Notes under the pieces: model-generated | Seen by the model: the letters and a program-made list of their open reading frames with translations, nothing else | The model's database searches: none | Told to the model about the DNA's origin: nothing | Shown: piece after piece, positions 1 through 27,777 of the stretch | How positions within the stretch are numbered: the first letter of the stretch is position 1 | Layout: every line of letters starts with the position of its first letter | Assembly (NCBI GenBank): GCA_947623505.1 | Contig: CANQGT010000014.1 | Span: 1-53,793 of the forward strand | Length of the DNA stretch: 53,793 bases | Source: an uncultured Clostridia bacterium | GTDB taxonomy: Bacteria > Bacillota > Clostridia > Oscillospirales > Acutalibacteraceae | Direction of reading: 5' to 3' | Made by a program: the position numbers and the translations under genes

Positions 1-112
1 TACTCTCGATTTAACTCTTCTTGAATCTAATCGGGTTCCTTTTCTTTCGTCGTTGTTCAATTCTCAAGGTCCTCTTTAGCTGCCTTATAAACGCAAGCCG
101 TTTAAAAGGTGC
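1..112 (-). ncRNA. rRNA operon leader (partial, 16S expected beyond window edge)
   Basis: The minus strand reads out of the left edge. It carries a box GACCTTGAGAATTGAACAA (rev. comp. of about 53-72) like the 'CTTTGAAAACTGAACAA' processing/leader boxes that precede 16S rRNA in Firmicutes. It ends ATCGAGAGTA, where a 16S 5' end would be expected within a few bases. No coding frame is present. The match to rRNA leaders is pattern recognition; the rRNA gene itself is outside the window. Confidence 0.6.
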
Positions 113-9193: not shown

Positions 9194-9226
9194 AACTTGA
9201 TCCTCCTTCAAGCTTTTAACATAAAT

Positions 9227-10162: not shown

Positions 10163-10451
10163 TTTTTCTCCTTAATTTGACAAAATTTGTATATGATTTA
10201 ATTATCCGATATGGCATTCATAAAGGCGGTTTTGTTTTCGACCGCCGTAGTAGTCGGTCTGCCAAGATCCGCCCTTGCGCCTATCGAGCATTTGACTTCA
10301 ATAAAGCTGAGAAGGGAAACCGCTTGTTCATTCGGGTTCTGCGGATTCGTGATTCCATACGACTTTGTCGTTTGTGCGGAAGATGCGGAGCCGTATTTGT
10401 GTACGTTGACGCCCTCTATACACTCAGTGTAAACGTTACTTGCTCGCCAAA
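10163..10451. other. Gap segment open on both strands; possible dispersed repeat or gene remnant
   Basis: The 289-bp interval keeps open frames on both strands: plus 10211-10432, 73 codons; minus 10198-10461, 87 codons beginning with GTG inside the upstream gene. Neither has a convincing ribosome binding site. It contains several short dyads: TACACTCAGTGTA near 10420, CGACTTTGTCG near 10362, and GGCGGT/ACCGCC near 10225-10245. I do not recognise a protein family. It sits exactly where the backbone-like gene (UDP-xylose synthase) meets the AT-rich cassette, so a repeat or recombination scar is a reasonable guess, not shown. Confidence 0.35.
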
Positions 10452-11552: not shown

Positions 11553-11584
11553 AATTATTCAACTCAATTCAATTTAATTATATA

Positions 11585-13186: not shown

Positions 13187-13189
13187 CGG

Positions 13190-13630
13190 TCATTTTTCCT
13201 CCTTTTTTTCCTGACTATCCTTTAGCCTGATGCGCAAATCCGTGGTTGAAATGCCCTGCGTGTACGGAATATAAACGACATCGCATCCTACTGAATTCAG
13301 CTCTTGTTCAATTTTGTTCCAAACCTCGGTTCCTTTCCAATCGTCGCCGATAAACGCAACGTCGAAATTGTACTTTTCCCACGCTTCCATTTTACTGTGG
13401 GTTTCATTTTTCACGACCTCATCCACATACCGAATGGCGGCAACGATATCGGCACGATCTTTATACGGTATGACCGTCGGACGGTTTTTACAGTGCATAA
13501 CCCATTCGTCTGAATGAACTCCTACAATAAGATACTCGCAATATTCTTTTGCCGAACGAAGAAGATTCAAATGTCCGATATGAAAAAGATCAAATGTTCC
13601 AACCGTAAATCCCTTTTTGTACTTTTTCAT
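13190..13630 (-). CDS. Cytidylyltransferase-family protein (TagD/glycerol-3-phosphate cytidylyltransferase-like)
   Basis: A 146-aa single-domain nucleotidyltransferase. It has the HxGH active site GTFDLFHIGHLNLLRSAKE, the conserved RADIVAAIRYVDEV block and the end motif GISTTDLRIRL corresponding to the RTEGISTT signature. It should join CTP to a phosphorylated small molecule. The usual TagD substrate is glycerol-3-phosphate, but no CDP-glycerol glycerophosphotransferase is nearby, so the partner may instead be the product of the adjacent aldolase/epimerase pair. LicD, also in this locus, could then transfer the activated phospho-group. Confidence 0.88.
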   Translation of the reverse strand: MKKYKKGFTVGTFDLFHIGHLNLLRSAKEYCEYLIVGVHSDEWVMHCKNRPTVIPYKDRADIVAAIRYVDEVVKNETHSKMEAWEKYNFDVAFIGDDWKGTEVWNKIEQELNSVGCDVVYIPYTQGISTTDLRIRLKDSQEKKEEK

Positions 13631-13635
13631 GATAT

Positions 13636-14685
13636 TTATTCTCCATTATTTTTTCTTGTTTCTCTAATAGAATCAAGAAGTTTTTTCAGCGTCTCATTCA
13701 GCGTATAAACCGGCTTCCAGCCTAAAGATTGGATCTTTGAAGCGTCCATCACCGTTTTACCTTCTTTGCGCATACCGAGTTTATACGGATCGTCGGCGAT
13801 CTCAAAAACAAGATTTACGGGAGCGCCTGAAATTGTGATGATTTTTTCCGCCATTTCTTTGATTGACACTTCGTTTTTCATATTTGTCAAGTTGTACGCA
13901 TTCCCGCTGACGCCGTTTGCAAGTACATAAAGAAATGCACAAGCGGCGTCATCGGCGTCCAAATAGCTTCTGACGGTTGCCCCGGATGATTTCAGAACAA
14001 TATTGCGATTTTCAATTACACATCTTGCAAATTCGGCAAAAAAGCGGGGATCGCCATATTGTACTCCGGTGCCGAATGTGGATGTCAACCGTACCGAATA
14101 AACGTTCAAACCGTATTTTGCCGAGAACGCACTCAGCATAGATTCACATACACGCTTGATCTCTGCGTAACAATTTCTCAGTATGAGAGGATCAAGTCTG
14201 CAAACATGATCCTCGGCAACAGGCTCCTCTACCGAGACATCACCGTAAATCTCATATGTAGAGACATACAAAAAGCCGGTGCATGAGTGACTGACTGCAC
14301 ATTGGAGAAGATTGCGTGTTCCCCCATAATTGGTATCAAACACCTTTACAGGGTCTTTCAGATGCATTTTGGTTCCACCTGAGAACCCGGCACAGTGAAC
14401 AATATAGTCCACCGGCTGTTCATAGCCTATTTCTCCTTCAATATCACATTTTACAAATATGACATCGCTGCTCGCTATAAGCGAAGGAAACAATTTTGAA
14501 AGCTTTGCATCATTTCTGTACAGCGCAACTATTTTAATGTCTGCACCGTAATCACGATTGAGCCCGACAATATAGTTTACCAGTCTGGAGCCTATCAACC
14601 CTGTTGCGCCGCTGATCAATACCGTTTTTCCTGAAAATTTCCGAGCAAGAAATTCTCTCTGTTCTTTAAGAGCTTCAGCATCCAT
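13636..14685 (-). CDS. NAD-dependent epimerase/dehydratase (extended SDR)
   Basis: 349 aa. The Rossmann motif is ISGATGLIGSRLV; the catalytic segment YVSTYEIYGD with NCYAEIKRVCE gives Tyr-x3-Lys. TSTFGTGVQYGDPRF and the ATVRSYLDADDAACAFLYVL binding region are typical of nucleotide-sugar epimerases and dehydratases. The substrate cannot be read from sequence. It lies 5 bp upstream of the cytidylyltransferase gene and probably works on the same metabolite. The open frame continues upstream of the ATG at 14685 (about 40 more codons) into a remnant region, so the start is uncertain. Confidence 0.85.
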   Translation of the reverse strand: MDAEALKEQREFLARKFSGKTVLISGATGLIGSRLVNYIVGLNRDYGADIKIVALYRNDAKLSKLFPSLIASSDVIFVKCDIEGEIGYEQPVDYIVHCAGFSGGTKMHLKDPVKVFDTNYGGTRNLLQCAVSHSCTGFLYVSTYEIYGDVSVEEPVAEDHVCRLDPLILRNCYAEIKRVCESMLSAFSAKYGLNVYSVRLTSTFGTGVQYGDPRFFAEFARCVIENRNIVLKSSGATVRSYLDADDAACAFLYVLANGVSGNAYNLTNMKNEVSIKEMAEKIITISGAPVNLVFEIADDPYKLGMRKEGKTVMDASKIQSLGWKPVYTLNETLKKLLDSIRETRKNNGE

Positions 14686-14753
14686 GCCTGATTTACCAAC
14701 CTTTCTAAATTGCTGTGAATATTGAGCAAATTTTGAATATAAATATTTATTCT

Positions 14754-14870
14754 TTATGACTTCTTGTATGCTTTCAGTATTTCCGTGATTTTTTTTCGAT
14801 TCATCAGCCCAACAACCATAATTGCCAATAAAAGCAAGTACCGTCGTGAGCTTTCAAAATTCCCGATACT
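14754..14870 (-). pseudogene. C-terminal remnant of a membrane protein
   Basis: A minus-strand frame of 38 codons reads SSRRYLLLLAIMVVGLMNRK and ends with a Lys-rich tail and TAA at 14754. A single hydrophobic segment with a basic tail is what remains of a Wzx/Wzy-like or other polysaccharide membrane protein. There is no start codon or ribosome binding site of its own; it abuts the broken deacetylase fragment. Confidence 0.5.
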
Positions 14871-15200
14871 GCTTTTCTATTTCTTTATATGCCATCTTAT
14901 TAAATTCGATATATTCAAATTTTTTGGATAACCTTTGAATTGACCATCTATACAGAATTTACTTCTTATAAATTCATCGTTTAAGGGAACAAAATTATTG
15001 TCACTATCTGTTATCAAATTCAGATGACAATGAATGTCTTTAATGTACCCCCGTGCAAATGCGATTGCTTCATCTGTAAATTCCAATTCCATTATCAGTA
15101 TAGTGGATTTGATCATACCGTTTTTCATAGCATAATCAATCGATATATTTCTCTCATGTGATTTACCAAAACCATCCGCAGGAAGTATTATTTTTTGCAT
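14842..15200 (-). pseudogene. Broken ChbG/YdjC-type polysaccharide deacetylase fragment
   Basis: From the ATG at 15200 the frame reads MQKIILPADGFGKSHERNIS, then an IDYAMKNGMIKSTILIM block and DIHCHLNLITDS. This is the N-terminal third of the YdjC/ChbG family (usual start N-ADDFG, metal Asp, then GxHxNL). Here ADDFG has become ADGFG, losing the second Asp. The frame stops at 14877, and the family-like continuation MAYKEIEKQYREF is in another frame before everything stops near 14842. Length is about 110 codons against 250-300 for the family. Truncated, frame-shifted and active-site altered: a pseudogene. Confidence 0.7.
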
Positions 15201-15336
15201 TTTTGTTCCCGCACTTTTGAATTTCTGCAACACATTATGATTATTGTTTTTATAGTTTGAAAGTCACTATATCTTTGTCACAAATAATTTTTCAATTTAT
15301 ATTCTACAAAAATCGACTAAGCGTTTAATGCATCCC

Positions 15337-16248
15337 TTAACATAGGTATCTTTTTATATAATCCTGATACGAAATCTCCGCATCAAAAATCACTGTTCCA
15401 TGTCTATTAGGTAGATTACGCGGCTTATTGTAATCCTTACCGTAGTATTCCGTCAGTATGTCATCATAATTAGCTGGCGCAGGAAAATGCATCCATTCAA
15501 ACTGTACAATTTGGTGTTGTGAAAACCATTTCCTTTCAAGATAGTGGATCGTTTTCGGATTGTATCTCCACCATAATTTATCGACATACTTGGAATTCTC
15601 CCACTTCATAGCCTCGGTTCTTAAAAGAGAATAGACTTTGTCGGGCGAGTGGTATAGAAGCTTAAGTAAATAGCCCAAAACAATTTTAATGGCACTTTTT
15701 ATTTTTTTGTTGCTATCAAATTTTGAATTCATAATACGAATCATTCTTCTATAACGATTATGTTTATTGATTGCTTTGATTGCTGTTTTTCGGTCTTCCG
15801 GTATCCCATCCAAAACAAATATATCAATAAATATTCCCTGATTGAATCTTACTTTTTTCATTTCAGATTGCAACATACCCGTAGTATTTGAATTTCTCAG
15901 CTGAGCATGGCATCGGTAATATCCCGTATCGGAATACGCTGTTTGCAAAAAATACGGTTTCTCAAAATATATCAGTCCATTGTTGACCAGCTGTTCGTAA
16001 TCGTTCCTAAACATAACGACATCAATATCATCGTCCCACGGAATAAAGCCTTTATCCCGAATTGCCCCTAAAAGCGTGCCTCCTTCTAAATAATAATTTA
16101 GACCCATCTGTCTGCATACTTCATCCAGCTTACATAAAAGATCAAGCTCCACCGCCCAAATTTTTTTCATCTTCTCCGTGACCGTGTAACCGCATCTGAC
16201 TTCTTCGTCCAAGAAGTGTTCCGGCAATTCTATCTTAATCGGAAGCAT
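15337..16248 (-). CDS. LicD family phosphotransferase
   Basis: 303 aa. LicD proteins transfer a phospho-alcohol (phosphocholine, phosphoribitol and similar) from a CDP-activated donor onto a glycan. The nucleotidyltransferase signature YYLEGGTLLGAIRDKGFIPW is followed by DDDIDVVMFRNDYEQL with the catalytic Asp residues. IFIDIFVLDGIPED and the C-terminal HFPAPANYDDILTEYYGKDY are characteristic. AAGGAG sits 8 bases before the ATG; wzx is 5 bp upstream. With the cytidylyltransferase in the same operon, a CDP-linked donor is likely. Confidence 0.93.
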   Translation of the reverse strand: MLPIKIELPEHFLDEEVRCGYTVTEKMKKIWAVELDLLCKLDEVCRQMGLNYYLEGGTLLGAIRDKGFIPWDDDIDVVMFRNDYEQLVNNGLIYFEKPYFLQTAYSDTGYYRCHAQLRNSNTTGMLQSEMKKVRFNQGIFIDIFVLDGIPEDRKTAIKAINKHNRYRRMIRIMNSKFDSNKKIKSAIKIVLGYLLKLLYHSPDKVYSLLRTEAMKWENSKYVDKLWWRYNPKTIHYLERKWFSQHQIVQFEWMHFPAPANYDDILTEYYGKDYNKPRNLPNRHGTVIFDAEISYQDYIKRYLC

Positions 16249-16253
16249 TTTTT

Positions 16254-17729
16254 CTAACTCCTTTTTTTTAGTATTTCCATAGCAATTTTTTTAAATGTTT
16301 CCAAAGCAATATATATCAGTTCCCGCAGTAAATTATCTTTCATAAGAAGCAACAGTCCAAAATATACGGCAACGCCGACAACGACCTGAATTACCACGAC
16401 AACAAGATTTCCATATGGCAAAAACTTTCCGAGAAGTAAAACGAATATCAGCATAATAAGTCCGCATATAATTCGTTTCCAACTCATTTTTAATAACAGT
16501 TTTCCCGACATATATTCACCGCTCATACGAACGTAGAGTATTGAAATAACCGATTCCGCGATAATAGACGCAATTACCGCGCCGGTTGCACCAATAAAGG
16601 GAATCATCGCGAAATTTAATATAAGATTAAGCACCGAGCCTAAAACGAGAACCTTTGCGCTGCGCGCTCTCTGACCGCTTGGTGTATAATAATTTGAGCC
16701 AAGGCAATTACTTATTCCGATAATAATAATCAGCGGCGACATATAGCATAAAAGATTGACAACGGGTTCATACCCCGGCCCGAAGAAAGCGGGCACAAAT
16801 CGACCGGCAATGCCGATAACCCCGAAAGCGCATCCGCACCCTATTAAAAAAATGAAATCCATGGTTTTACGGATACGGTCCTTTATCTCATTATATTTCT
16901 TTTCCGCAAACAAATAGGATATACGAACACTCATTACGCTGTTTATCGCGATAAAAGATATCGTATAGATCATCCGCATAATTTTGTTTGCCTGCTCATA
17001 ATAGCCGTTTTGATACGTATCATGGGTAATTGCACCTATCAAGGTTTTATCTAATACCGTATAGATAGAAGTCGCAATGGTCGGAACAAAATAAATAAGC
17101 GTTTCTTTGAAATGATTTTTGAAAGTCAACGTTCGTATGTCAACTTTTGTGAGCATTTTGGGAAGATATATCCACATAGAGAGATTACCAAGCATAGTAA
17201 CCAATGAATTGATAACAACATAAATTATCAAATCATCCCGCTGCCTTACAAATACGAATAAAAGCACGATCCCCGCTATTTTGAACAACGAATTGCAAAT
17301 TACAATATTTTTTATCTTCTCATGACCGGTGAAGTACCACGAAATGTCAAACATAGTACCCATCAGAACGGGAATCAACGCGATAAAATAAGGCCGATAT
17401 TGCTTGCTGAATGCGATCACTCCACACCAGACAAGTAAACACATTGACGTTGTCGCCACAGTCATCAATTCTATTTCCCAAAACAGCTTGCTCGACTGTT
17501 GTTTATCATTCCTATGTTGGGCGATCTCTCTCACACCGTAAGTTACGGTTCCGAGAGCGGCAAATAATGTAAAGTATGTTATGATTGAAAAAGTATAACT
17601 GTAAATTCCTACTCCGTCTGCTCCCAAAACACGGGACACATACGGAGTTGTAATAAACGGCGTTATTAAAACAAGAATCTCATAGAAAGTACGATAAATG
17701 TAATTTTTCTTTACGCTCGGTTGTGACAA
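16254..17729 (-). CDS. Oligosaccharide flippase (Wzx-like, MVF/PST family)
   Basis: 491 aa, about 12-14 predicted membrane segments throughout. The N terminus FYEILVLITPFITTPYVSRV with LGADGVGIYSYTFSI is typical of polysaccharide transporters of the RfbX/Wzx type that flip lipid-linked repeat units across the membrane. Start is TTG at 17729, preceded by GGAGG at 10 bases; there is no ATG nearby in frame. It is part of the AT-rich cassette between wzy and licD. Confidence 0.92.
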   Translation of the reverse strand: MSQPSVKKNYIYRTFYEILVLITPFITTPYVSRVLGADGVGIYSYTFSIITYFTLFAALGTVTYGVREIAQHRNDKQQSSKLFWEIELMTVATTSMCLLVWCGVIAFSKQYRPYFIALIPVLMGTMFDISWYFTGHEKIKNIVICNSLFKIAGIVLLFVFVRQRDDLIIYVVINSLVTMLGNLSMWIYLPKMLTKVDIRTLTFKNHFKETLIYFVPTIATSIYTVLDKTLIGAITHDTYQNGYYEQANKIMRMIYTISFIAINSVMSVRISYLFAEKKYNEIKDRIRKTMDFIFLIGCGCAFGVIGIAGRFVPAFFGPGYEPVVNLLCYMSPLIIIIGISNCLGSNYYTPSGQRARSAKVLVLGSVLNLILNFAMIPFIGATGAVIASIIAESVISILYVRMSGEYMSGKLLLKMSWKRIICGLIMLIFVLLLGKFLPYGNLVVVVIQVVVGVAVYFGLLLLMKDNLLRELIYIALETFKKIAMEILKKRS

Positions 17730-17847
17730 TAAATTAATTCCTCCTTAAGGAGAGTTTTTGGATTTAATTCTTCGCTGAATATTTCTTTTTACAAATCAAA
17801 AAGGCTAACATCAACAAGCATTTTACTACGACCATCCAAATGCAAAA

Positions 17848-19122
17848 TCAATTAGTAACAATTTCTGCTTTGTAATTGTGCTTTAATGGCGCCGTACACG
17901 CGAAAGCATAACCGCAAGCAATAATAAAAATAGTAGTAGAAGCATATTGAGCTGATGAAATCAACAAATTAAACACAATCATAAAGCCGAATATCATAAC
18001 TTTCATGAAAAGCGATTTATCTATACGGCTTGAGGTATATAACGCCAATATTAATGAAAGCGAATAAAACGCGATCATATATATGCCTCCCTGTGCCAAC
18101 AAAATTGTGAGCCCCATGGAAAGGCCTTCAACCCTATCAAATGTGAAATTTTGAAAGATTTCTTCTGATTCTTGATATCCAGCTCCGAATATCACATGTT
18201 CTTTCCAAGTAGTGATTTCGGCTTGAATATCATCCATACGAACAAGAAAAGAATGGGTATTAGACTTATCTTCAAGAAGAAAAAATATTCCTATTGATAT
18301 CGCCGCGACAATAATTATTGTAAAGACGCATTTCAAAATAAACTTTTGCGCACTTTTTGAGGGATTTGTAAAAAGATATGTCAACGCGATCAGAAGCATA
18401 ACCGCTATAATGCCCTTAGTCGAAAGAGTCGAAAACATCGTAATTGACAGAAGAATTTTTTGCCATAGCGGAAATTTTCCTTTTTCCGCGGGAATCGCAA
18501 TCGACAAAGCAATTATTAAATAACCGCTAAAGCCCGGAGCCTCAGCATAAATTCCCGTATTTCTGATTACCGTCCGCCCCAATATTTTGGTCGACTGAAT
18601 TATATTTTCAAAATAAAGCCAAAAATAATTAACCGTAGTATGATTATTCCCCGCCCAAATATACGGTGTTGAAACGCCTTTGATAAAGCCTAAAAGAGAA
18701 CCGAATAACCAAAAGAATAAACTAATAGATGCGACTATGCTGACTACATTAACAAATACCTTTGCAAATTCATCAACCTTTCCGTCTTGAATCAATGTGC
18801 CGGCATATAAGAAAAAAATGATAAAAATCAGCACATGCTTCGTAAGATATGCCCCGGGGTTTGATCTTGTAACTACGATATAAAAAAGTAAGTATATAAC
18901 AAGAAAAAATAAAACCAATATCGATCTCTGTTTGATTCGCATTTTACCGTTATAAAAACATCCCATTAGGCAAAATATCGTTAGAAAAATATATTGAACA
19001 TTTTTAATACCCGCTATCGATGCCATCGGCATTGATAAAAACCACATACACGATGATCCCGTTAAAAGCGATATGGCAATAAAGTACATAATCAAATTAT
19101 TAACCGAAAATCTAAGGCGCAT
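17848..19122 (-). CDS. O-antigen/capsule polymerase (Wzy-like)
   Basis: 424 aa, about 11 hydrophobic segments with a larger outside loop (about residues 140-190, including STPYIWAGNNHTTVNYFW). The following segment RNTGIYAEAPGFSGYLIIAL matches the conserved polymerase/ligase region where Arg and Glu act. The family polymerises lipid-linked repeats at the outer membrane face. AAGGAG lies 8 bases before the ATG. Wzy and ligase paralogues cannot be separated by sequence alone; proximity to wzx and wzz favours Wzy. Confidence 0.85.
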   Translation of the reverse strand: MRLRFSVNNLIMYFIAISLLTGSSCMWFLSMPMASIAGIKNVQYIFLTIFCLMGCFYNGKMRIKQRSILVLFFLVIYLLFYIVVTRSNPGAYLTKHVLIFIIFFLYAGTLIQDGKVDEFAKVFVNVVSIVASISLFFWLFGSLLGFIKGVSTPYIWAGNNHTTVNYFWLYFENIIQSTKILGRTVIRNTGIYAEAPGFSGYLIIALSIAIPAEKGKFPLWQKILLSITMFSTLSTKGIIAVMLLIALTYLFTNPSKSAQKFILKCVFTIIIVAAISIGIFFLLEDKSNTHSFLVRMDDIQAEITTWKEHVIFGAGYQESEEIFQNFTFDRVEGLSMGLTILLAQGGIYMIAFYSLSLILALYTSSRIDKSLFMKVMIFGFMIVFNLLISSAQYASTTIFIIACGYAFACTAPLKHNYKAEIVTN

Positions 19123-19206
19123 CTTGTTTACTCCTTCTCAGACAGAGCCTACCGTAATTAAATTAATCAGACAAATTCAACAATATATCAATCATACAAT
19201 ACTTCA

Positions 19207-19386
19207 TCAATAAATTGCAGTATATTTTGTTTTCTCAAAACATTTATCACCTTGCCTGTTCTGCTTTTTTAACGCAAAAGTATAAATATCAGGCGAAATA
19301 TTCTTTATTTGATTTTCGTAATCACATATTTTTATAAGGTTTTCATTTGTTATCGGTAATAGCAACAAAGCGCGAAATACCGTCAT
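19207..19386 (-). pseudogene. Unrecognised 59-codon frame in the rfbG-wzy gap
   Basis: From ATG 19386 the frame reads MTVFRALLLLPITNENLIKI and continues as an AT-rich, Lys-rich stretch to a stop at 19207. It overlaps the glycosyltransferase remnant in another frame. No family is recognised and no ribosome binding site is apparent. It is most simply a piece of decayed gene left by cassette replacement. The remaining interval 19123-19206 shows nothing else. Confidence 0.3.
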
Positions 19387-19432
19387 AAACCATTTTGCCT
19401 ATGACATGCGCGATTCGAACTGTCTCAGACAT
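19343..19432 (-). pseudogene. N-terminal remnant of a family 4-type glycosyltransferase
   Basis: ATG 19432 begins MSETVRIAHVIGKMVYDGIS, matching the very characteristic start RxAHVIGKMxGGGVE of EpsF/CapM-like GT4 glycosyltransferases, but the frame ends after 29 codons. GGAG lies upstream in the end of the dehydratase gene. The glycine-rich loop is already altered (YDGIS). The rest of the gene is missing, so the locus has lost at least one glycosyltransferase. Confidence 0.6.
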
Positions 19433-19441
19433 TTTTTAATA

Positions 19442-20497
19442 TCACTCCAAAAAATCATCGATTTCACTGCTCATCTCAGCGGGGATATCTTTGCCCGCGA
19501 GCCAAGATTTGTAGAATCGAGCGGTATATTTCATACATTCGTCAATATTCCAGTGAGGCTTCCAGCCGAATGTGTTTTTTAACTTTGAACAGTCGAGTTT
19601 TAAAAAGTTCGCCTCGTGTACGGCGTTTTTCTCAGACCGGTTTATCCATTGCGCGTCTTTGCCCCAATGCTTGCAGAAAAGATCAACGAGCTCGCCTGTA
19701 GTCACACAGTCACATTCATCGGGGCCTACATTGTAAAATCCGGCAATGCGCTTATCCTCATACTGCTTCGCGGCAATCATAAGATATACAGCTAACGGCT
19801 CCAAAACATACTGATAAGGACGGATCGAATAAGGATTTCTAACGCCTATCCTCTCCCCTCTCATCACGGCGCGGACACAGTCGGGAATTATTCTGTCGTT
19901 AGCGAAATCTCCGCCTCCGATAACATTACCCGCACGGGCGGTGGAAACGGCGACGGAGCTGTCGGAGAAAAAGCTGTTGATATAACTGTGCGTCACAAGC
20001 TCGGAGCAGGATTTTGAATTTGAATACGGGTCATAGCCGTCAAGCGGCTCGTCCTCACGGTAGCCCCGGAGCGACTCGTTATTTTTGTAAACCTTATCGG
20101 TCGTAACATTTAAAACGCTTTTTACGCTCCGATTAAGCCTAACGCACTCCATAAGGTTGACCGTGCCCATAACATTTGTTTCGTATGTGAGCTGCGGATT
20201 TTTATAGCTCTCGCGAACTAACGGTTGCGCGGCAAGATGAAAAACTATCTCGGGCTGAGCCTCGGCAAAAACGGCTTTCAATCTGTTAAAATCTCGAATA
20301 TCGTCAATGACGCTCTTCATTTCGCCATCAAGACCGGAAATATCAAACAAATTAGGATTTGTCGGCGGCTCAAGAGAATAGCCAGTAACAATAGCGCCCG
20401 CGTTGGCAAGCATTTTACACAGCCAAGAGCCTTTAAAGCCGGTATGACCCGTTATAAAAACTCTCTTTCCGTTGTAAAAGCTTAAATCAAAAGCCAT
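19442..20497 (-). CDS. rfbG: CDP-glucose 4,6-dehydratase
   Basis: 351 aa extended SDR converting CDP-glucose to CDP-4-keto-6-deoxyglucose, the entry to CDP-linked dideoxy and related sugars. The N terminus YNGKRVFITGHTGFKGSWLC is diagnostic, as are TTDKVYKN and the catalytic YSNSK, with RAGNVIGGGDFANDRIIPD and RPYQYVLEPL. The ATG at 20497 is chosen because it starts the family consensus; the frame opens 13 codons earlier. The usual partner glucose-1-phosphate cytidylyltransferase (rfbF) and the downstream dehydrase and reductase are not in this window. Confidence 0.94.
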   Translation of the reverse strand: MAFDLSFYNGKRVFITGHTGFKGSWLCKMLANAGAIVTGYSLEPPTNPNLFDISGLDGEMKSVIDDIRDFNRLKAVFAEAQPEIVFHLAAQPLVRESYKNPQLTYETNVMGTVNLMECVRLNRSVKSVLNVTTDKVYKNNESLRGYREDEPLDGYDPYSNSKSCSELVTHSYINSFFSDSSVAVSTARAGNVIGGGDFANDRIIPDCVRAVMRGERIGVRNPYSIRPYQYVLEPLAVYLMIAAKQYEDKRIAGFYNVGPDECDCVTTGELVDLFCKHWGKDAQWINRSEKNAVHEANFLKLDCSKLKNTFGWKPHWNIDECMKYTARFYKSWLAGKDIPAEMSSEIDDFLE

Positions 20498-20575
20498 TTT
20501 TAGCAAACCTTCCACTCCGTGTTTATGTTTTACCACATCTTTTCAAAATGTAACGCTTGATAAAATACAGTTTAA

Positions 20576-21232
20576 TTAAGCAGCGCCTGAACCGCTGAGA
20601 ACAGCAGGTATAGCCATAAAAATTATTTTTAAATCCGTTAATATTCCGGCTTCACTAATATAGCGGTAATCCATATCCATCCATTCGTCAAAGCTTACAT
20701 TATTTCTGCCGCATACCTGCCAATAGCACAGAAGACCGGGCTTAACCAAAAGTCTCTGCTTTTGTTCGTCAGTAAGCAGTTCCGTCTCGTAAGTCGGAAG
20801 AGGTCTCGGGCCGACGACGGACATTTCGCCTTTTAAAATATTAATAAGCTGAGGAATCTCATCAATACTTGTTTTTCTGATGAATTTACCGACTTTTGTT
20901 ATGCGGGGATCATCTTTCATTTTAAATGCGGGCCCGTCAAGCTCGTTTTGGTCTTCCATCTCAAATCTCAAATTCTGAGCATTCTTTGTCATGCTGCGAA
21001 ACTTCCACATTTTAAAAACTTTGCCGTTGATCCCGTTCCTGTCCTGAATAAAAAAAACAGGGCCGGGATCGTCGATATATATAATCAAAGACACAATCAA
21101 AATCAATGGAGATAATAAAATTATTCCCAAAATACTGACCGTAATATCAAAAGCTCTTTTGATAAAGCGATACCATAAACTGGGGTTTGGTTTTATCTCC
21201 CCGGCGTTTGATATCTTATCATTATTTTCCAT
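20576..21232 (-). CDS. Undecaprenyl-phosphate sugar-1-phosphate transferase (initiating sugar transferase)
   Basis: 218 aa. Starts the repeat unit by moving a sugar-1-phosphate onto undecaprenyl phosphate at the inner membrane. One membrane segment (about 27-50) is followed by the bacterial sugar transferase domain: FKMWKFRSMTKNA, KFIRKTSIDEIPQLINILKG, EMSVVGPRPLP and KPGLLCYWQVCGRN. The ATG at 21232 lies inside the Tyr-codon repeats that end the kinase gene, overlapping it by 11 bp. No strong ribosome binding site is visible, so translational coupling is likely and the start is less certain. Confidence 0.93.
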   Translation of the reverse strand: MENNDKISNAGEIKPNPSLWYRFIKRAFDITVSILGIILLSPLILIVSLIIYIDDPGPVFFIQDRNGINGKVFKMWKFRSMTKNAQNLRFEMEDQNELDGPAFKMKDDPRITKVGKFIRKTSIDEIPQLINILKGEMSVVGPRPLPTYETELLTDEQKQRLLVKPGLLCYWQVCGRNNVSFDEWMDMDYRYISEAGILTDLKIIFMAIPAVLSGSGAA

Positions 21233-21989
21233 AATAAGAACCGTAATACTTTCCGTAATATTTACCGTAGTATCTGCCATAATATCTGTTTGAGGCAAGA
21301 TCCACATTGTTGAGAACGCATCCGAGAATCTTGGTGCCGGAAGCCTGTAGCTGCTCCTTGCACTTTTGAGCTATGCGATAACTGATTTCGCTGTCTCTCA
21401 AAACAAGAATAATACCATCACACTGCTTTGAAACTATAGCGGAATCAATAACGCTTCCTATGGGAGGAGTATCGACAATTACAATTTGATATTTTTCCCT
21501 CGCCTGCTCAATAAGAGCGTTAAAGCGCTTACTTACCAAAAGCTCACTCGGATTCGGAGGAACATGGCCGGCGAATATAATATTTAAGTTATTTATATCG
21601 GTTATATTAACACTTTGTTCAAAATTTCTTTGGCCGATAAGATAGTGAGTAAGACCGCTTGAGGGATTACCGCCTCTGCAATATTTTCTCATAACGGATT
21701 TTCTGAGGTCGGCGTCAATAAGCAAAGTGCTTTTTCCGCTTTCTGCGAACGCGCAGGCAAGATTATAGCTTACCGTGGATTTACCGTCGCCGGGAAGCGC
21801 GCTTGTAATGCATATTACATGAAGATCTTCTCCTGAAAATTCAGTGTTTGAACGAAGAGTTTTAAACGCCTCTTGAAGTTGAAAATTATTAGCGCCCTCT
21901 TTGCGGAGATAAGCGATATGGGTATTCGGAGAAGCATTTTCGATTGCGGGGTTTACCTGGTTTTCGTTAAAATCATTTACTGACGGCAT
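21222..21989 (-). CDS. Bacterial tyrosine kinase (CpsD/YwqD-type)
   Basis: 255 aa. BY-kinase that pairs with the Wzz-like protein to control polymer length and export. Walker A is SALPGDGKST, Walker A' LLIDADLRKS, Walker B VIVDTPPIGS. The C terminus is a repeated YYG(R/K/S) tail with five Tyr pairs, the known autophosphorylation cluster. It is encoded by near-identical 12-bp repeats at 21225-21290. It lies 5 bp after wzz. The phosphatase gene upstream would reverse its phosphorylation. Confidence 0.95.
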   Translation of the reverse strand: MPSVNDFNENQVNPAIENASPNTHIAYLRKEGANNFQLQEAFKTLRSNTEFSGEDLHVICITSALPGDGKSTVSYNLACAFAESGKSTLLIDADLRKSVMRKYCRGGNPSSGLTHYLIGQRNFEQSVNITDINNLNIIFAGHVPPNPSELLVSKRFNALIEQAREKYQIVIVDTPPIGSVIDSAIVSKQCDGIILVLRDSEISYRIAQKCKEQLQASGTKILGCVLNNVDLASNRYYGRYYGKYYGKYYGSYYGK

Positions 21990-21994
21990 ATTTT

Positions 21995-22804
21995 TTACCT
22001 CCTTTGAACTGAGCCGCTTTGCCTTGAAGAAGCGGAGCTGCTCTTACTTGACGAACGACTTGAAGAAGAATGTTTTCTCTTTTTGCCGCTGCTCTTGCCG
22101 CTCTTAACCGCCGTTTCCATTTTGGGGATAAGAGCAAGAGTGGGCAGGCCGAGATATTGCTCAACATCTGCTTCCGATTTAATCGAATCATCGGAAATAT
22201 AACGGATAACAAGAAAGATAAGCATAGCCAAGCCGCCTATGCCGGCCGAAACAACGGCCCAAATAAGTTTTGACGGCGAAGCGGCCTCTGTAGGCAGATT
22301 GGCCTTTTCGGCAATATTGACTGCCTGAACGTCCGTAACGCTCGTTATATGCTCACTGGCGGTATCTCTCAATGTGTTCGCGATAGTCTGCGCGACTTGA
22401 GGATCCGGATCCTCAACGGATATTGAAATTATATGCGTATCCGTGGTGTTTGAAATGGACACACGGGAAACGAGCTGCTCGTAAGTATCCTCAAGACCGC
22501 ATTTTTCTATAACCGATTCAATAACGTCTCTGCTCTCGATAAGCTCCTCATAGTCCTTGGTGAGCTGACTTGAAATCTGAAAGTCGGAGTACTGAAGCGC
22601 ATCGCTGTTCTGCCTGTTCAATATAAGAATTTTTGTGGTTGAACGAAACTGCGGCGTGATTACAGTCAAGCAAATAGCAAGACCGACAACCGTAGTAATT
22701 AAAACGGAAAACACAAAATAATACCAGCGCTTTAAAAAGTAGCTGAGCATTGAAATAATATCTATTTCGATTGTTTCATTAGTATCTTTTTCTTTTTCGT
22801 ACAT
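21995..22804 (-). CDS. Chain-length determinant / kinase adaptor (Wzz, CpsC-type)
   Basis: 269 aa. Two membrane segments (about 27-50 and 183-203) flank an extracytoplasmic Wzz domain (FRSTTKILILNRQ, VEDPDPQVAQTIANTL). The C-terminal cytoplasmic extension after SDDSIKSEADVEQYLGLP contains the kinase-activating region and ends in a long Ser/Lys-rich low-complexity tail (about 230-269), longer than in typical CpsC proteins. It activates the adjacent BY-kinase in characterised systems. Confidence 0.93.
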   Translation of the reverse strand: MYEKEKDTNETIEIDIISMLSYFLKRWYYFVFSVLITTVVGLAICLTVITPQFRSTTKILILNRQNSDALQYSDFQISSQLTKDYEELIESRDVIESVIEKCGLEDTYEQLVSRVSISNTTDTHIISISVEDPDPQVAQTIANTLRDTASEHITSVTDVQAVNIAEKANLPTEAASPSKLIWAVVSAGIGGLAMLIFLVIRYISDDSIKSEADVEQYLGLPTLALIPKMETAVKSGKSSGKKRKHSSSSRSSSKSSSASSRQSGSVQRR

Positions 22805-22820
22805 CTTTGCTTTCCCTCCG

Positions 22821-23570
22821 TTAGTTTAAGCAGAACATTTCCACTGCGTTGTCTCTTAAAAGCAGCGAGGCATATTCAAAACCGTATTTTTTTATAAGAA
22901 TATCTCTGCATTTGGATATTTCCGGTGTGCGGTGTTTATTTCCGTGTGCGTCCGTGCCGATAAAATCAACAAGTTCTTCTTGCAAAAGACCGTGAACAAA
23001 TTTTTTTACGCTTTTGCCGTTGCCTCCGGTAACGCTGGAGGCGTTGACCTGAATGCGAACGCCTAAATCGGAAAGGCGGTAAACCTTTTCAAAATCTTTA
23101 ATAAGCGATTCATAACGCTCTATATGAGCAATCACCGGATGAAAACCGGCAAACATAACGCTGTCCATCGCGTTTTCGATAACGTGAAAAGGCGCTATCG
23201 GCGAAAACTCTATCAAAACAAAATCTGAGCCGTTCATAGTAAACGCTCGCCGCTCTTTCAGATATTGCGGTAAATCTTCAAAATAATAGAATTCGTTTCC
23301 GGGATAAAAGCGAAGAGAAATACCGTGCTTATCCGCGGCTTCCTGAGCGGCCGTCATCACCCGATAAACCGTTTGCGGGGGCGCGCCTCTGCGATTGTTG
23401 AAATGCGGAGTAACGACTATATCGGTAATTCCGCTGCCCGCCGCTTCGCGCATCATATCGAGAGAAACGGACGGACTTTCGGCTCCATCATCAAGCCCCG
23501 GGAGAATATGGCAATGCACGTCAACAATTCTTCCGAAACCTTCATTACGATTAGCCAAACAAATCACCAC
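22821..23570 (-). CDS. PHP-type tyrosine-protein phosphatase (CpsB/YwqE-like)
   Basis: 249 aa. Manganese-dependent PHP-fold phosphatase acting on the CpsD-type kinase. Metal ligands appear in IVDVHCHILPGLDDGA, DIVVTPHFN, YPGNEFYY, PVIAHIERYE and VDFIGTDAHG. The frame opens with GTG at 23570; a TTG at 23558 is an alternative, and neither has a textbook ribosome binding site. It is the first gene of the capsule export block, with the kinase and Wzz following. Confidence 0.93.
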   Translation of the reverse strand: MVICLANRNEGFGRIVDVHCHILPGLDDGAESPSVSLDMMREAAGSGITDIVVTPHFNNRRGAPPQTVYRVMTAAQEAADKHGISLRFYPGNEFYYFEDLPQYLKERRAFTMNGSDFVLIEFSPIAPFHVIENAMDSVMFAGFHPVIAHIERYESLIKDFEKVYRLSDLGVRIQVNASSVTGGNGKSVKKFVHGLLQEELVDFIGTDAHGNKHRTPEISKCRDILIKKYGFEYASLLLRDNAVEMFCLN

Positions 23571-23613
23571 CGCACATCAGTTTAAAACAAAATAAGCAAA
23601 ATTAATATATTAT

Positions 23614-23641
23614 AATATATAACCGAGTATAACAGTGACAA
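23614..23641 (-). promoter_or_regulatory. Candidate promoter upstream of cpsB-like gene
   Basis: Minus strand -35 TTGTCA (23636-23641), 16-bp spacer, -10 TATATT (23614-23619). A perfect TATAAT lies 5 bp further on but with a 21-bp spacer. Moderate match only, so the capsule genes may also depend on read-through from upstream. Confidence 0.4.
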
Positions 23642-23706
23642 TTATACAATAGGGCAATCACAAAATCAAGAAATATTTTCAGAATATACGAAAATTTCAA
23701 AAATGC

Positions 23707-24750
23707 TTATTCGCCTTTCATTCCGATAAGCTCAGATTCGCCTTTATACGCTTTAACGGAAAGGCTTACCGAATCGAAAACGGCGCTTTCAATATCGTCA
23801 TTCGTACAGCCAAGCTCCTCACAGTCCGAAGTAGGTATAAAAAGATTCATTCCCATTATATCTGCAAGACCGACGGGATCAATTCCGAGATCGGTTCCGC
23901 GTTTTTTATATTCGGAACGCATTGTAAGCCCAAAGGCTTTGAACATCCATTTCGGGATATCGACGATGCGCCTGTCGGGAGTGCCGTCCATAGCTCTGTA
24001 AACTATTTTCAAAAATTCCCGCCAAGTTAAATTATAGCAGGATATTCCGTAAGCCCTAAAGCTCCCCTGCCGCTTTTCTGCGGCTAAACAAGCGGTTTCG
24101 CAAGCTCCGGTCAAAGCCTCGCCAACCTGTCGAACGGTGAGCATAGCGGTGCCTCCGGCGGGATACATCGTGAAAGGCATTTTTTCAAAACGGCTGAGTT
24201 GCTCCACAAGTATCGTCCAAACCGGCTTTCTGCCCTTTTGCGTTCCGAAAATATACGGCAATTCAAGAACGGAAACGGCAAAATTCAAATCCGCGTAATC
24301 CTCGCAGACCTGTTCCTGCGCTATCCTGCTTCTGATATACGGATGTTTGTCGCAAAGCTTCATATCGGGGCGTTGCTTCGCAAGCCAAGAAAAATACGAG
24401 CCGCAAACTACCGCGCCTTTCATTCCCGCTTTCTTCGCGAGGGGCAAAAAACGCTTGAGCGGAGCGATATTATATTGATAATAATAATCATAGACCGGAG
24501 CCGGAAACTCCACTCTTTCGTCAACTCCCGCGGCAAAAACAAAAATGTCGCATCCTGTCATTAAAGAAACTATTTCATTGTCCTCAAGCTTATTTGCGTC
24601 TCGAAGAATAAGCTCCATTTCCTCGGGAATATCGGCGCCGGAGGGCACCGGAGGAAGCGCAAGCGATTTTACATAATTACCTCTGTCTATCAAAATTTTT
24701 GCCGCCGCGGAGCCGAGGAGACCGGTTCCGCCAATCATAAATACTTTCAT
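23707..24750 (-). CDS. NAD-epimerase/dehydratase-like SDR protein, catalytic Lys replaced
   Basis: 347 aa, first gene downstream of the putative inversion switch. The Rossmann motif IGGTGLLGSAAAK is intact. The position of the SDR Tyr-x3-Lys pair reads Tyr138-IRS-Arg142, so Lys is replaced by Arg, and the family nucleotide-sugar motifs are weak. It could be an atypical epimerase, a reductase, or a regulatory NmrA-like protein. GGAATGGG precedes the ATG. It is 136 bp upstream of the phosphatase gene and on the same strand, so it belongs to the head of the capsule locus. Confidence 0.75.
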   Translation of the reverse strand: MKVFMIGGTGLLGSAAAKILIDRGNYVKSLALPPVPSGADIPEEMELILRDANKLEDNEIVSLMTGCDIFVFAAGVDERVEFPAPVYDYYYQYNIAPLKRFLPLAKKAGMKGAVVCGSYFSWLAKQRPDMKLCDKHPYIRSRIAQEQVCEDYADLNFAVSVLELPYIFGTQKGRKPVWTILVEQLSRFEKMPFTMYPAGGTAMLTVRQVGEALTGACETACLAAEKRQGSFRAYGISCYNLTWREFLKIVYRAMDGTPDRRIVDIPKWMFKAFGLTMRSEYKKRGTDLGIDPVGLADIMGMNLFIPTSDCEELGCTNDDIESAVFDSVSLSVKAYKGESELIGMKGE

Positions 24751-25036
24751 AGCATTCCCATTCCGTCAATAAAATATTACCATAATAAGCCAAAACAGCA
24801 ATATTATTACCCAAAAACAAACACCTTAATTATTTACAGAGTAATAATTTACGCTATCACCAAAATTTGTAAATACTTTCGTATTGAAAAGCAAATACGC
24901 AGGGTAAAAAGCTTAATTTACAAAAATTTTTTCACATTTATAAAAAACTTATCGGTTTCACGTAATATTATACCATTTTTTGGTATTTTCAGTCAACATA
25001 TAAAGAATTTCAGATATATTACAAAATATTTTTGCA
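24751..25036 (-). other. AT-rich leader between inversion segment and SDR gene
   Basis: About 290 bp with no coding frame. It holds the fixed promoter at 24967-24996 and about 210 nt of predicted 5' UTR. A weaker promoter-like pair lies close to the gene: TTGCTG, 16 bp, TAATAT on the minus strand near 24773-24800. Long A/T tracts dominate. Confidence 0.5.
24967..24996 (-). promoter_or_regulatory. Fixed promoter with dyad in spacer, upstream of the SDR/capsule genes
   Basis: Minus strand -35 TTGACT (24991-24996), 18-bp spacer, perfect -10 TATAAT (24967-24972). The spacer contains ACCAAAAAATGGT, a dyad symmetric over ATACCA/TGGTAT that overlaps the promoter and could bind a regulator. It lies just outside the left inverted repeat, so it does not flip. 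Confidence 0.65.
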
Positions 25037-25054
25037 ACAAAATTTTTATTTCGT
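25037..25054 (+). repeat. Left 18-bp inverted repeat of putative inversion element
   Basis: Reads ACAAAATTTTTATTTCGT on the plus strand and is identical to the minus-strand sequence at 25269-25286. The site itself is dyadic: arms GCAACAAAAT and ATTTCGTTGC (one mismatch) around a short A/T spacer. This is the layout of a tyrosine-recombinase core site. Confidence 0.8.
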
Positions 25055-25268
25055 TGCCTATATGAAAAAAGATTCTGAATTAAGCCATTATAATTTCGAG
25101 GAAATATAATTCTTCAAGCCAGCAATAAAGCAAAATGTGTGAAAACATACGTCGCTGTTGTTGCAAACCTATGTAATAATTTTTTTAAGTAAAATATTGC
25201 TTTCTGTCGAAATATGTGTTATTATTCTAAAACATAATTAACTTGAGTCTTTTTTATAAAGGTTATGG
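25055..25268. other. Putative invertible DNA segment (214 bp)
   Basis: Segment between perfect 18-bp inverted repeats, immediately beyond the stop codon of a tyrosine recombinase gene and upstream of the leftward capsule locus. It has no coding frame. It contains a rightward promoter candidate TTGCTT, 17 bp, TATTAT (25197-25225) that would face the capsule genes after inversion. A weaker leftward candidate, TTGAAG, 19 bp, TATAAT (25087-25117), faces them now. Which orientation is ON cannot be decided from sequence. Size and layout match known promoter switches such as cwpV of Clostridioides difficile (about 195 bp). Confidence 0.75.
25197..25225 (+). promoter_or_regulatory. Promoter candidate inside the invertible segment
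   Basis: -35 TTGCTT (25197-25202), 17-bp spacer, -10 TATTAT (25220-25225). In the present orientation it points right into the 3' end of the recombinase gene, where it has no downstream plus-strand gene. Inverted, it would point at the SDR gene and capsule locus. Confidence 0.5.
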
Positions 25269-25286
25269 ACGAAATAAAAATTTTGT
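25269..25286 (-). repeat. Right 18-bp inverted repeat of putative inversion element
   Basis: Minus strand ACAAAATTTTTATTTCGT, identical to the plus strand at 25037-25054. It begins directly after the recombinase stop codon (25287-25289), so inversion would leave the recombinase coding sequence untouched. Flanking arms here are GAC/GTC rather than GCAAC/GTTGC. Confidence 0.8.
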
Positions 25287-26135
25287 CTATAGTATCAACC
25301 CGAGCCTTTCAAGCTGTTTTGCGTGCTCTTCGCCCGTGGAGAGCAAGTAAATGCGTGTTGTTTCTATCGAACTGTGGCCGAGCAAATCGGCAAGCTGGGC
25401 GACGTTTTTTGTCGCTTTATAATATACCCGAGCAAACAAGTGGCGAAGATTATGCGGAAACACCTTTGAGGATTCAACTCCGGCTTTACCGCATATCGCT
25501 TTCATTTCCGCCCATATCTGCTTTCTGGATATTCCCTTTCCGCTTTTGGTGATGAAGATCTCGCCTGAAGCGATTTTTTTATTTTTGGCGTATTTCAGTA
25601 ATTTTCTGCACAACTTGTTAGGCAAAAGGATCGTGCGTATTTTGCCTTTCAGCGAAATATCAGCCTTGCCGGCTTTCAGCGATTCAACTGTGATATATTT
25701 CACTTCGGATACGCGTATTCCCGTGCCTCCTATTGTTTCAAGCAGCAGCGAAAGTCTTTCCTTACCAGATTTTTCGGCGGCGGCAATCAATCGTTCGTAC
25801 TCGTTTCTTTTAAGATTTCTGCTTTCTTCCTGAAAAAGCCTGCGCTGGATACGCAGAAATTTTACCCGCACGCAAATCCCTGCAAACCGGCAATAAGTGT
25901 TGACGGCCGCGAGCATGGAATTGACCGTAACGGGCTTATATCCTTTTTCGAGCAGCCGCTCTTTCCATTCGCACACCGTTTCTTTGGCAATTTCTCTGCC
26001 GTCAAGCCATTCGGAAAAAGCCGTAATATCTCGCAGATATTTCTGAACCGTTCCGCTTACCCGTTCCTCACCGCAAAGCCATTTGCCGAACTGCTCGATA
26101 CTTTCTTTTGTGATACTTTTAACTGCGTTTTCCAT
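25287..26135 (-). CDS. Tyrosine recombinase (XerC/D-type, probable DNA invertase)
   Basis: 282 aa from the ATG at 26135, which follows AGGAGG by 8 bases (the frame opens 18 codons earlier without a signal). The N-terminal SAM-like DNA-binding domain (about 8-90) is followed by the catalytic domain with Arg141 (GGTGIRVSE), Lys165, His228 and Arg231 (PHNLRHLFA), His254 (LLGHSS) and nucleophile Tyr263 (TTRIYLL). The full catalytic set is present, so it should be active. It is a stand-alone gene with its own promoter and no excisionase or mobile-element cargo. Its 3' end touches one of the inverted repeats, which argues for site-specific inversion rather than integration. Confidence 0.9.
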   Translation of the reverse strand: MENAVKSITKESIEQFGKWLCGEERVSGTVQKYLRDITAFSEWLDGREIAKETVCEWKERLLEKGYKPVTVNSMLAAVNTYCRFAGICVRVKFLRIQRRLFQEESRNLKRNEYERLIAAAEKSGKERLSLLLETIGGTGIRVSEVKYITVESLKAGKADISLKGKIRTILLPNKLCRKLLKYAKNKKIASGEIFITKSGKGISRKQIWAEMKAICGKAGVESSKVFPHNLRHLFARVYYKATKNVAQLADLLGHSSIETTRIYLLSTGEEHAKQLERLGLIL

Positions 26136-26216
26136 AATAAATGCCTCCTGTTTTATATAGGGCGAAATCAGTTTAAAAGCGTTTTCCAAAAACCGTATTC
26201 AGCCCCGAATGCGTTT

Positions 26217-26244
26217 AATATATTGTAAGCGATATTTTTAACAA
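26217..26244 (-). promoter_or_regulatory. Recombinase promoter
   Basis: Minus strand -35 TTGTTA (26239-26244), 16-bp spacer, -10 TATATT (26217-26222). Predicted 5' UTR about 75 nt. Confidence 0.5.
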
Positions 26245-26310
26245 CATTCAAAACAAATGGAACATTTATATAAAAGAGAAATATTAAAACAGCCAAAATA
26301 AAATCAGAGA

Positions 26311-26351
26311 AAAAAACGCCCGCCGATAATATAAATTAAAGGCAGGCGTTT
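26311..26351 (-). terminator. Terminator of the carboxyltransferase operon
   Basis: Minus strand AAACGCCTGCC (26341-26351) pairs with GGCGGGCGTTT (26314-26324), one mismatch, followed by TTTC on the 3' side. It separates this operon from the recombinase gene. Confidence 0.85.
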
Positions 26352-26379
26352 ACCGATGCCTAACTCAACAAAGATGAAT

Positions 26380-27777
26380 TTACACCGGATGTACTTTATT
26401 TTTTATATCGTCGTGCTTTCCGTCAAGATGATACTTCGCGTCTCTTCTCTTTTGGAAGAATTTAACGGCGACCTGATCAAACTGAGCATAAGAGAGTACA
26501 TCCTCCTCCTGCTCGTAATATTCGGATATTTCTTTTCTGAATCGGTCAAGCTCAGGGGAAAGAAGATCAGCCGGGCGGCAGTCTATAACGGGTTCGTCAC
26601 CGACTATCCTCTTTTGAAAATCGGGATCTATCTCGCAAGGCGTTTTTCCGTATTTTCCCGCAACAAGATCTTTAAATTCCTTTGTGACCATTTTGTAGCG
26701 TTCGCCGGTAATTATATTGAAAACAGCCTGAGTGCCGACGATCTGAGAAGTGGGCGTTACAAGCGGAGGAAAACCGCTGTCTTTCCTTACGCGCGGAACT
26801 TCATTCAACACGTCTTCGAGTTTATCCTCTTTTCCCGCCTGCTTAAGCTGATTAAGCAGATTTGAAAGCATACCGCCCGGCACCTGATATAGCAGCGTGT
26901 TTGCGTCAACTCCGAGCATTTTTGTGTTGAGCAGCCCTTCGGCAATATACTTTTCACGCAGAGGCATAAAGAAATCACGGATCTCCGACAGCGCCTTTAT
27001 ATCAAGGCCGGTGTCGTAAGGAGTGCCGCGCAGCGCCGCGACCATAGACTCCGTCGCGGGGTGAGAAGTTCCCATAGCAAGCGGACTCATAGCCGTGTCT
27101 ATAACGTCTACACCCGCCTCAATGCCTTTAAGATGAACCATTGAAGCAAGGCCGGATGTGTAATGTGAATGAAGCTGGATAGGAATAGAAACGGTTTTCT
27201 TTAAAGCATCAACAAGATCGTAAGTGCCGTAAGGCGTGAGCAGACCGGCCATATCCTTTATACAGATGGAATCCGCGCCCGCGTTTTCAAGCTGCTTTGC
27301 GTAATTGCAATAATAATCTATATCAAACACGGGGCCTGTAGTGTATGAAATTGCCGCCTGAACGTGGCCGCCGTATTTTTTGGAAGCGTTTATTGCCGTT
27401 TCAAGATTTCTCACATCGTTCAGAGCGTCGAAAATACGCATAATATCAATGCCGTTATCGATACTTTTTTTAACGAAATAATCAACAACATCGTCCGCGT
27501 AATGGCGGTAACCGAGCATATTCTGACCCCTGAAAAGCATTTGGAGCTTAGTATTCGGGCATTTTTTTCTGATAAGACGAAGTCTTTCCCAAGGATCCTC
27601 ATTGAGAAATCTGAGGCAGGAATCAAAAGTGGCTCCACCCCAGCATTCAAGGGAATAAAATCCTATCTTATCCATTTTTTCAAGAATATCCGAAAATTCG
27701 TCCGTGCGCATACGAGTTGCGATAAGCGACTGATGTGCGTCACGCAAAACGGTTTCGGTAATGCCTATTTTAGCCAT
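26380..27777 (-). CDS. Pyruvate/oxaloacetate carboxyltransferase subunit (5S / OadA catalytic part, no biotin domain)
   Basis: 465 aa. HMGL-fold carboxyltransferase moving CO2 between carboxybiotin and pyruvate/oxaloacetate. Conserved blocks are ETVLRDAHQSLIATRM, ECWGGATFD, MLFRGQN, YCNYAKQLENAGADSICIKD (metal Lys), IQLHSHYTSG and the C-terminal PXXLL/KDSGFPPLVTPTSQIV domain. It ends without the biotinyl domain that many OadA proteins carry; the biotin carrier is the separate gene 10 bp upstream. The ATG at 27777 has GAGGTGG at the proper distance; a GTG three codons earlier is less likely. Confidence 0.92.
   Translation of the reverse strand: MAKIGITETVLRDAHQSLIATRMRTDEFSDILEKMDKIGFYSLECWGGATFDSCLRFLNEDPWERLRLIRKKCPNTKLQMLFRGQNMLGYRHYADDVVDYFVKKSIDNGIDIMRIFDALNDVRNLETAINASKKYGGHVQAAISYTTGPVFDIDYYCNYAKQLENAGADSICIKDMAGLLTPYGTYDLVDALKKTVSIPIQLHSHYTSGLASMVHLKGIEAGVDVIDTAMSPLAMGTSHPATESMVAALRGTPYDTGLDIKALSEIRDFFMPLREKYIAEGLLNTKMLGVDANTLLYQVPGGMLSNLLNQLKQAGKEDKLEDVLNEVPRVRKDSGFPPLVTPTSQIVGTQAVFNIITGERYKMVTKEFKDLVAGKYGKTPCEIDPDFQKRIVGDEPVIDCRPADLLSPELDRFRKEISEYYEQEEDVLSYAQFDQVAVKFFQKRRDAKYHLDGKHDDIKNKVHPV

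Follow-up and report, generated by a model that had tools for sequence, protein, structure and literature searches.

A 214-nt segment (25055–25268) of the window, which is the whole 53,793-nt stretch of DNA analysed here, is well supported as a DNA-inversion switch, with the window copy seen in one orientation only. It is likely a functional inversion switch of a cassette type that is frequent in Clostridia, and it would modulate rather than gate the transcription of an epimerase gene and perhaps of the capsule genes behind it. A recombinase-linked inversion switch had been proposed in the initial annotation and is strongly supported by the site structure, a counterpart in the sister species G019, and inversions within the recombinase family. 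The phase-variable capsule expression that was deduced along with it is not supported in that form, as a genus-wide epimerase intervenes and fixed promoter-like sites precede both the epimerase and cpsB. From sequence comparison, we infer that this copy itself inverts. A dedicated inversion switch is hereby documented in this Clostridia lineage, and the comparison reveals a recurrent self-contained cassette that holds recombinase, sites, promoter, and often a terminator together. With these parts side by side, an assembly is enough, even without reads, to propose switches and their targets. Finding an inverton close to a capsule locus is, by itself, no evidence of capsule gating.

The segment is enclosed by perfect 18-bp inverted repeats (25037–25054 and 25269–25286) that are complementary at 18/18 positions and lie 214 nt apart, exactly as first described. 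No other perfect inverted repeat of at least 16 bp is present in the window at a spacing of up to 1.5 kb, the runners-up being one repeat of 15 bp (1-nt loop) and two of 14 bp. A repeat of 18 bp or more with a 100–400 nt spacer occurred in 0 of 5000 dinucleotide shuffles of 24750–25290 and a repeat of at least 16 bp in 0 of 60 shuffles of the whole window, which speaks against chance as the source of the repeats. Each arm is itself dyadic, as had been recognized, and takes on a 7-4-7 architecture (ACAAAAT-TTTT-ATTTCGT) with 6/7 matching outer pairs. The exact site is found in two copies in the 1.82-Mb assembly, both of which are the arms of the switch; sites with two mismatches occur at two more places, compared to three for a reversed control pattern. 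The right arm ends at 25286 and directly abuts the stop codon (25287–25289) of a tyrosine recombinase, confirming the reported junction, and the left arm constitutes the partner site.

The stand-alone tyrosine recombinase is encoded on the minus strand (25287–26135) and comprises 282 aa from its likely ATG. SAM-like and catalytic domains are identified by profile search (PF00589 at 2.5e-25; PF02899). The reading frame can also open at TTG 26189; the start is probably ATG 26135, because the ortholog of the sister species starts there. The complete, site-linked recombinase of the initial annotation is retained with its predicted start moved to 26135. Its conserved residues (the arginine of TGIR, the lysines of KGK, HNLR, GH, and the tyrosine of RIY) are intact and invariant in 6/6 aligned family members. 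Three PDB sequences match at E ≤ 1e-10, all of them Xer-like (4a8e, XerD 1a0p, and XerA 5hxy), and relatives of the enzyme are numerous in Clostridia.

The epimerase of G019 groups with that of the window at 100/99 in a tree of 30, which identifies G019 as a sister species. Its gene order is the same, namely pycB (named by eye), recombinase, stop codon, 18-bp arm, 219 nt, arm, epimerase, and cpsB. The recombinases of the two species are 74% identical, and their cpsB genes are 77% alike. The arms read ACAAAATTTTCATTTTGT in G019 and ACAAAATTTTTATTTCGT in the window and differ by two changes, each of which is present in both arms. Homologous loci lacking the repeats or the recombinase had been named, together with single-orientation read data, as a possible refutation of the switch; both genomes with the capsule block carry recombinase and repeats. 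The segments of the window, G019, and L110 align in one common orientation around TTGYTT-17-TATYAT, and so does that of L111 as far as it extends. The distal part of the segment has diverged between the window, G019, and L110. The opposite orientation of the window's own switch was found in none of G019, L110, and L111. In L111, a gene resembling an IS30 transposase (~5980–6600, by eye) interrupts the distal part of the segment, and the second arm was not found there.

A scan of named genome contigs returned at least 580 stretches encoding a relative of the recombinase. The best 80 loci were kept; they contain 81 copies above the cut, 70 of which have at least 400 nt downstream. Site pairs were sought by the outer half-sites alone (ACRRAAT-N4-ATTYYGT, up to two mismatches). 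In these best 80 of at least 580 loci, a motif-defined pair is present in 50/70 copies, compared to 0/70 in shuffles (one per copy), and in 45 of the 50 pairs no more than 17 nt separate the first site from the recombinase stop. The free 4-nt center is identical between the inverted arms in 50/50 pairs and in 2.1% of comparisons between loci (best 80 of at least 580), although the 50 pairs are not all independent because the loci are related (L163 and L176 are duplicates). Strand exchange by tyrosine recombinases requires an identical crossover region. No motif-defined pair was found in 20 of the 70 copies (best 80 of at least 580 loci), 7 of which have another perfect repeat of at least 14 bp; the more distant copy L033 (43%) is without such a repeat. 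Viral contigs gave eight pattern matches, none of them a relative. The window possesses the site right after the recombinase stop, the 7-4-7 site, and the identical center, and it departs from two common, non-universal traits of the cassette in having no OFF terminator and a target gene 286 nt away.

As judged by sequence alignment, the recombinase family inverts its segments in nature, in the window lineage too, because L115/L152 and L025/L024 lie in opposite orientations. L115 and L152, from MAGs labelled Acetatifactor, have colinear flanks (84–86%) that surround a 467-bp middle (88%) on the opposite strand. L025, the window genome's own paralog on contig C18, and its G019 ortholog L024 have flanks of 95% and 84%, between which 188 bp including one arm align at 89% in minus orientation. 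Both orientations are seen for family members and for the own paralog, and the window copy is seen one way only in the window, G019, L110, and L111. The arms of L025 are perfect, whereas those of L024 (G019:C3) differ in the middle, contrary to the rule of identical centers, and retain only a 10-bp perfect repeat. For this reason L024 may no longer flip and may be locked in the ON orientation.

The segment harbors promoter-like hexamers in both directions, and both pairs of the initial annotation are present at the positions given there, although neither reaches the threshold of a consensus scan (8/12 matches; 19-nt spacer). The outward pair TTGCTT-17-TATTAT (25197–25225, plus strand), whose -10 element ends 43 nt before the right segment border, points at the 3' end of the recombinase gene, which defines the OFF orientation. 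It recurs in the same position and orientation in G019 (L023/L112) and L110, and the region aligns the same way in L111. The inward pair TTGAAG-19-TATAAT (25087–25117, minus strand) is weak and partly conserved, with TTGAAA-17-AATAAT near the same place in G019. Elsewhere in 23400–26500, the consensus scan reports 23 promoter-like sites, where shuffles average 7.1. No promoter-like site is regarded as proven, because the scan shows an excess across this AT-rich region and omits both segment pairs. Position and conservation speak in favor of the outward promoter, its consensus match being weak and absent from the scan, and we infer that the promoter-like sites of the segment act as promoters. 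A simpler promoter score ranked the inward pair over the outward pair and called the window and G019 ON. This label was replaced by a position-based test, adopted because the distance between the pair and one segment end is constant among relatives, and by this test the assembled orientation is predicted to be OFF. No hairpin terminator was detected in either direction of the window segment or the G019 segment, and a search of Rfam over 23400–26500 gave no match up to E 1.

The position-based test requires TTGNNN-16..18-TANNNT with the -10 element ending 25–80 nt from a segment end. Across the best 80 of at least 580 loci, such a pair is present in 42/54 segments at 31–59 nt from one end, pointing toward the recombinase (OFF) in 31 and toward the target (ON) in 11, with none in 12. 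The pair score reaches 8.5 or more in 39/53 segments of the same best 80 of at least 580 loci, against a mean of 2.6 and a maximum of 8 in 200 shuffles. Terminator-like hairpins toward the target occur in 15/31 OFF and 1/11 ON segments, and toward the recombinase in 11/31 OFF and 5/11 ON segments, at a shuffle rate of 1.5% (best 80 of at least 580 loci). Under a crude ORF rule, the target gene starts within 66 nt of the second site for 40 of 51 called targets, compared to 286 nt in the window, and a strong promoter-like site (score ≥10) in the gap between site and target is found only in the window, L112 (G019), and L137 (both among the best 80 of at least 580 loci).

The left repeat had been described as facing the capsule locus. 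The first gene beyond the switch is an NAD-dependent epimerase/dehydratase (23707–24750, minus strand) that is found genus-wide, in 65/80 genomes; a 15.5-kb capsule/EPS block (8099–23570, minus strand) does lie beyond it. By profile, the block encodes a CpsB/CapC phosphatase, a Wzz-type chain-length protein, a tyrosine autokinase, a sugar transferase, and a CDP-glucose 4,6-dehydratase; its other genes are identified by eye only. Two fixed promoter-like sites outside the switch had been missed. TTGACT-18-TATAAT (24967–24996, minus strand), with TG before the -10 element and 11/12 matches, is located in the gap between switch and epimerase and is the same in G019. TTGATT-17-TATAAT (23641–23669, minus strand; 10/12 matches) stands directly before cpsB and corresponds to TTGAAT-17-TATAAT in G019. 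The motif TTGNNN-16..18-TANNNT precedes the epimerase in 28/30 genus loci, including the window and G019, against a shuffle frequency of 0.03–0.28 per locus. Because the epimerase and cpsB have promoter-like sites of their own, inversion could do no more than add or remove a single upstream promoter. The switch is thus probably not the sole promoter of the epimerase or the capsule genes, and it may add a tandem promoter. Between switch and cpsB, no terminator-like site was found on the minus strand outside coding sequence, and one weak 5-bp stem lies within the epimerase, so that read-through into the capsule genes is possible.

At 28 of 30 epimerase loci (30 of 75 examined), no recombinase is present in the flank covered, some flanks being cut by contig ends. 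Across the other 78 genus genomes (some only 62–80% complete), matches reach at most 58% for the recombinase (partial) and 34% for CpsB. In six relatives (L073, L074, L075, L076, L078, and L079), pycB precedes the epimerase in 6/6, with 1–4 kb between them in L078 and L079, and capsule genes beside the epimerase were found in 0/6. A gene matching 7474–7818 comes next after the epimerase in L073, L074, and L079 and is separated from it by ~5–6 kb of intervening genes in L075 and L076; it was not found in L078. In the window and G019, the epimerase lies between the recombinase cassette upstream and capsule genes downstream. When 394 sampled genomes of the order were searched for a possible donor of the capsule genes, a CpsB match at E ≤ 1e-55 was obtained only in the window's own genome. 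In the tree of 30 genus members, the window and G019 epimerases form long branches compared to most of the others, which perhaps reflects a changed role beside the capsule block.

In the proposed mechanism, the cassette consists of a recombinase whose stop codon abuts one site, an invertible stretch of typically 190–290 bp, and a partner site in inverted orientation. The enzyme would bind the 7-bp half-sites, exchange strands across the 4-nt center, and flip the segment. The one outward promoter near a segment end would be aimed at the 3' end of the recombinase gene in the assembled orientation (OFF) and at the epimerase and capsule block in the flipped segment. Inversion would then modulate the epimerase, and perhaps the capsule genes via read-through, rather than gate them, because fixed promoter-like sites lie outside the switch and the segment is without a terminator.

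The starting hypothesis was a Bacteroides-like on/off control of the entire capsule locus by the invertible promoter, OFF at present and ON when flipped. It lost weight from the fixed promoter-like sites before the epimerase (28/30 genus loci) and cpsB (both species) and from the epimerase, which occupies the same place in relatives that have neither switch nor capsule block. It is possible, not favored, and by now distinctly unlikely. The co-occurrence of a close recombinase and the capsule block in 2/2 genomes argues for it, given the 58% partial recombinase and 34% CpsB matches of the other 78; both genomes are one lineage, and the co-occurrence therefore counts as one event. The lack of a terminator-like site outside coding sequence up to cpsB also agrees with capsule control, as do the intact recombinase and the co-evolving arms, which indicate that something in cis is probably selected. 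Set against this are the 286-nt target gap with its strong promoter-like site, where 40/51 targets of the best 80 of at least 580 loci start within 66 nt, and the family's other targets, since none of the Pfam families examined for 42 targets (25 of 26) is a polysaccharide family. The same target distance, fixed promoter-like site, and absent terminator depart from the usual family pattern in a way that also suits a decaying or orphaned switch, whose cassette still flips but lost its original target upon insertion before the epimerase, leaving little effect of orientation. The divergence of the distal segment among the window, G019, and L110 fits such a loss, whereas an intact recombinase in two species and a segment promoter and sites that are kept in place do not, and we consider it unlikely.

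The inward pair and its G019 counterpart near the same place raise the question of a two-promoter flip, in which promoters at both ends would let orientation alter the strength, not the presence, of the epimerase-ward promoter, with the other promoter always directed against the recombinase. The inward spacing is unequal between the two species, and canonical pairs at both ends are found in 1/54 family segments (L169; best 80 of at least 580 loci), which makes this reading quite improbable. Tyrosine recombinases are often integrases, and the repeats could be the remnant attachment site of an integrated element, or a product of chance, with no switch at all. The repeats are inverted instead of direct, the pair is conserved in G019, the centers are identical in 50/50 pairs (best 80 of at least 580 loci), and the family inverts naturally, so that hardly any weight is left for the absence of a switch.

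The cassette could be a self-biasing memory device, which we put forward tentatively. The OFF promoter would fire into the 3' end of the cassette's recombinase gene, with convergent transcription acting as a brake that lowers recombinase output and stabilizes OFF; the ON orientation would release the brake, and a terminator at the other end would tighten OFF in many members. The negative feedback is deduced from the geometry, which recurs across Clostridia. Among the targets are second recombinase-like genes, surface proteins, and an SPFH gene that is followed by a TIR gene. The cassette of the window lineage would then be a dose modulator before an already transcribed epimerase–capsule region.

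Inverted repeats that bound a promoter near polysaccharide genes are known from the invertible capsule promoters of Bacteroides (Mpi and relatives). In contrast to these, the recombinase of the window is directly adjacent, its site occurs in exact form just twice in the genome, and its polysaccharide genes are located behind another gene and have fixed promoter-like sites; on sequence evidence, the invertible promoter does not appear to be the promoter of the capsule operon. Jiang et al. 2019 reportedly described gut bacterial invertons that are intergenic and have tyrosine recombinases nearby. The gut intergenic invertons covered in the available portion of PMC11892184 resemble the switch in their short inverted repeats, invertible promoter, and nearby tyrosine-type recombinase. 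Inverton groups 139 and 125 are mostly from Firmicutes_A and have new repeat motifs, and tyrosine-type recombinase/integrase genes are enriched near group 139; a site at the recombinase stop, a 4-nt center rule, and an OFF-side terminator were not found in that portion of the paper. The cwpV/RecV system of Clostridioides difficile, likewise a member of the Clostridia, has a similar invertible segment of ~200 bp and repeats of ~20 bp, as far as the accessible part of PMC2784873 describes it. It had been cited as sharing the layout of the window, a comparison that fails, as the cwpV segment has no promoter and works via an OFF terminator, and recV is unlinked. The window, in contrast, has a linked recombinase, a promoter-like pair in the segment, and no hairpin terminator in either direction, and is thus not a terminator switch of the cwpV type. 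The fim switch of Escherichia coli, according to the same part of PMC2784873, also combines an invertible promoter with recombinase genes in its vicinity, differing in its two recombinases, FimB and FimE, where the window has one.

The second switch of the window genome (G000:C18, L025:13397–13669; recombinase 13707–14549) faces an SPFH (Band_7_1) gene at 12225–13364, with a TIR-TPR gene (9430–11070) three genes further on. PADLOC, which has no model for the SPFH or TIR genes, gave no match for five genes near this switch and matched a sixth as Fic-type. In G044 (L077), 19-bp repeats stand before a similar gene (by eye). Behind the switch, 12 of 42 scanned loci carry a gene with the SAM-like N-terminal domain of phage integrases, and integrase-like targets were judged by eye at L113, L120, L128, L135, L142, L146, L158, L174, L183, L184, L185, and L189. 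At such loci, a recombinase switch would drive a second recombinase-like gene. G030, from the same order, has seven copies of the recombinase (L026–L032) on contigs C11, C7, C20, C5, C9, C1, and C30. All of them lie no farther than ~800 bp from a contig end, which looks like an assembly broken up by repeats or mixed orientations.
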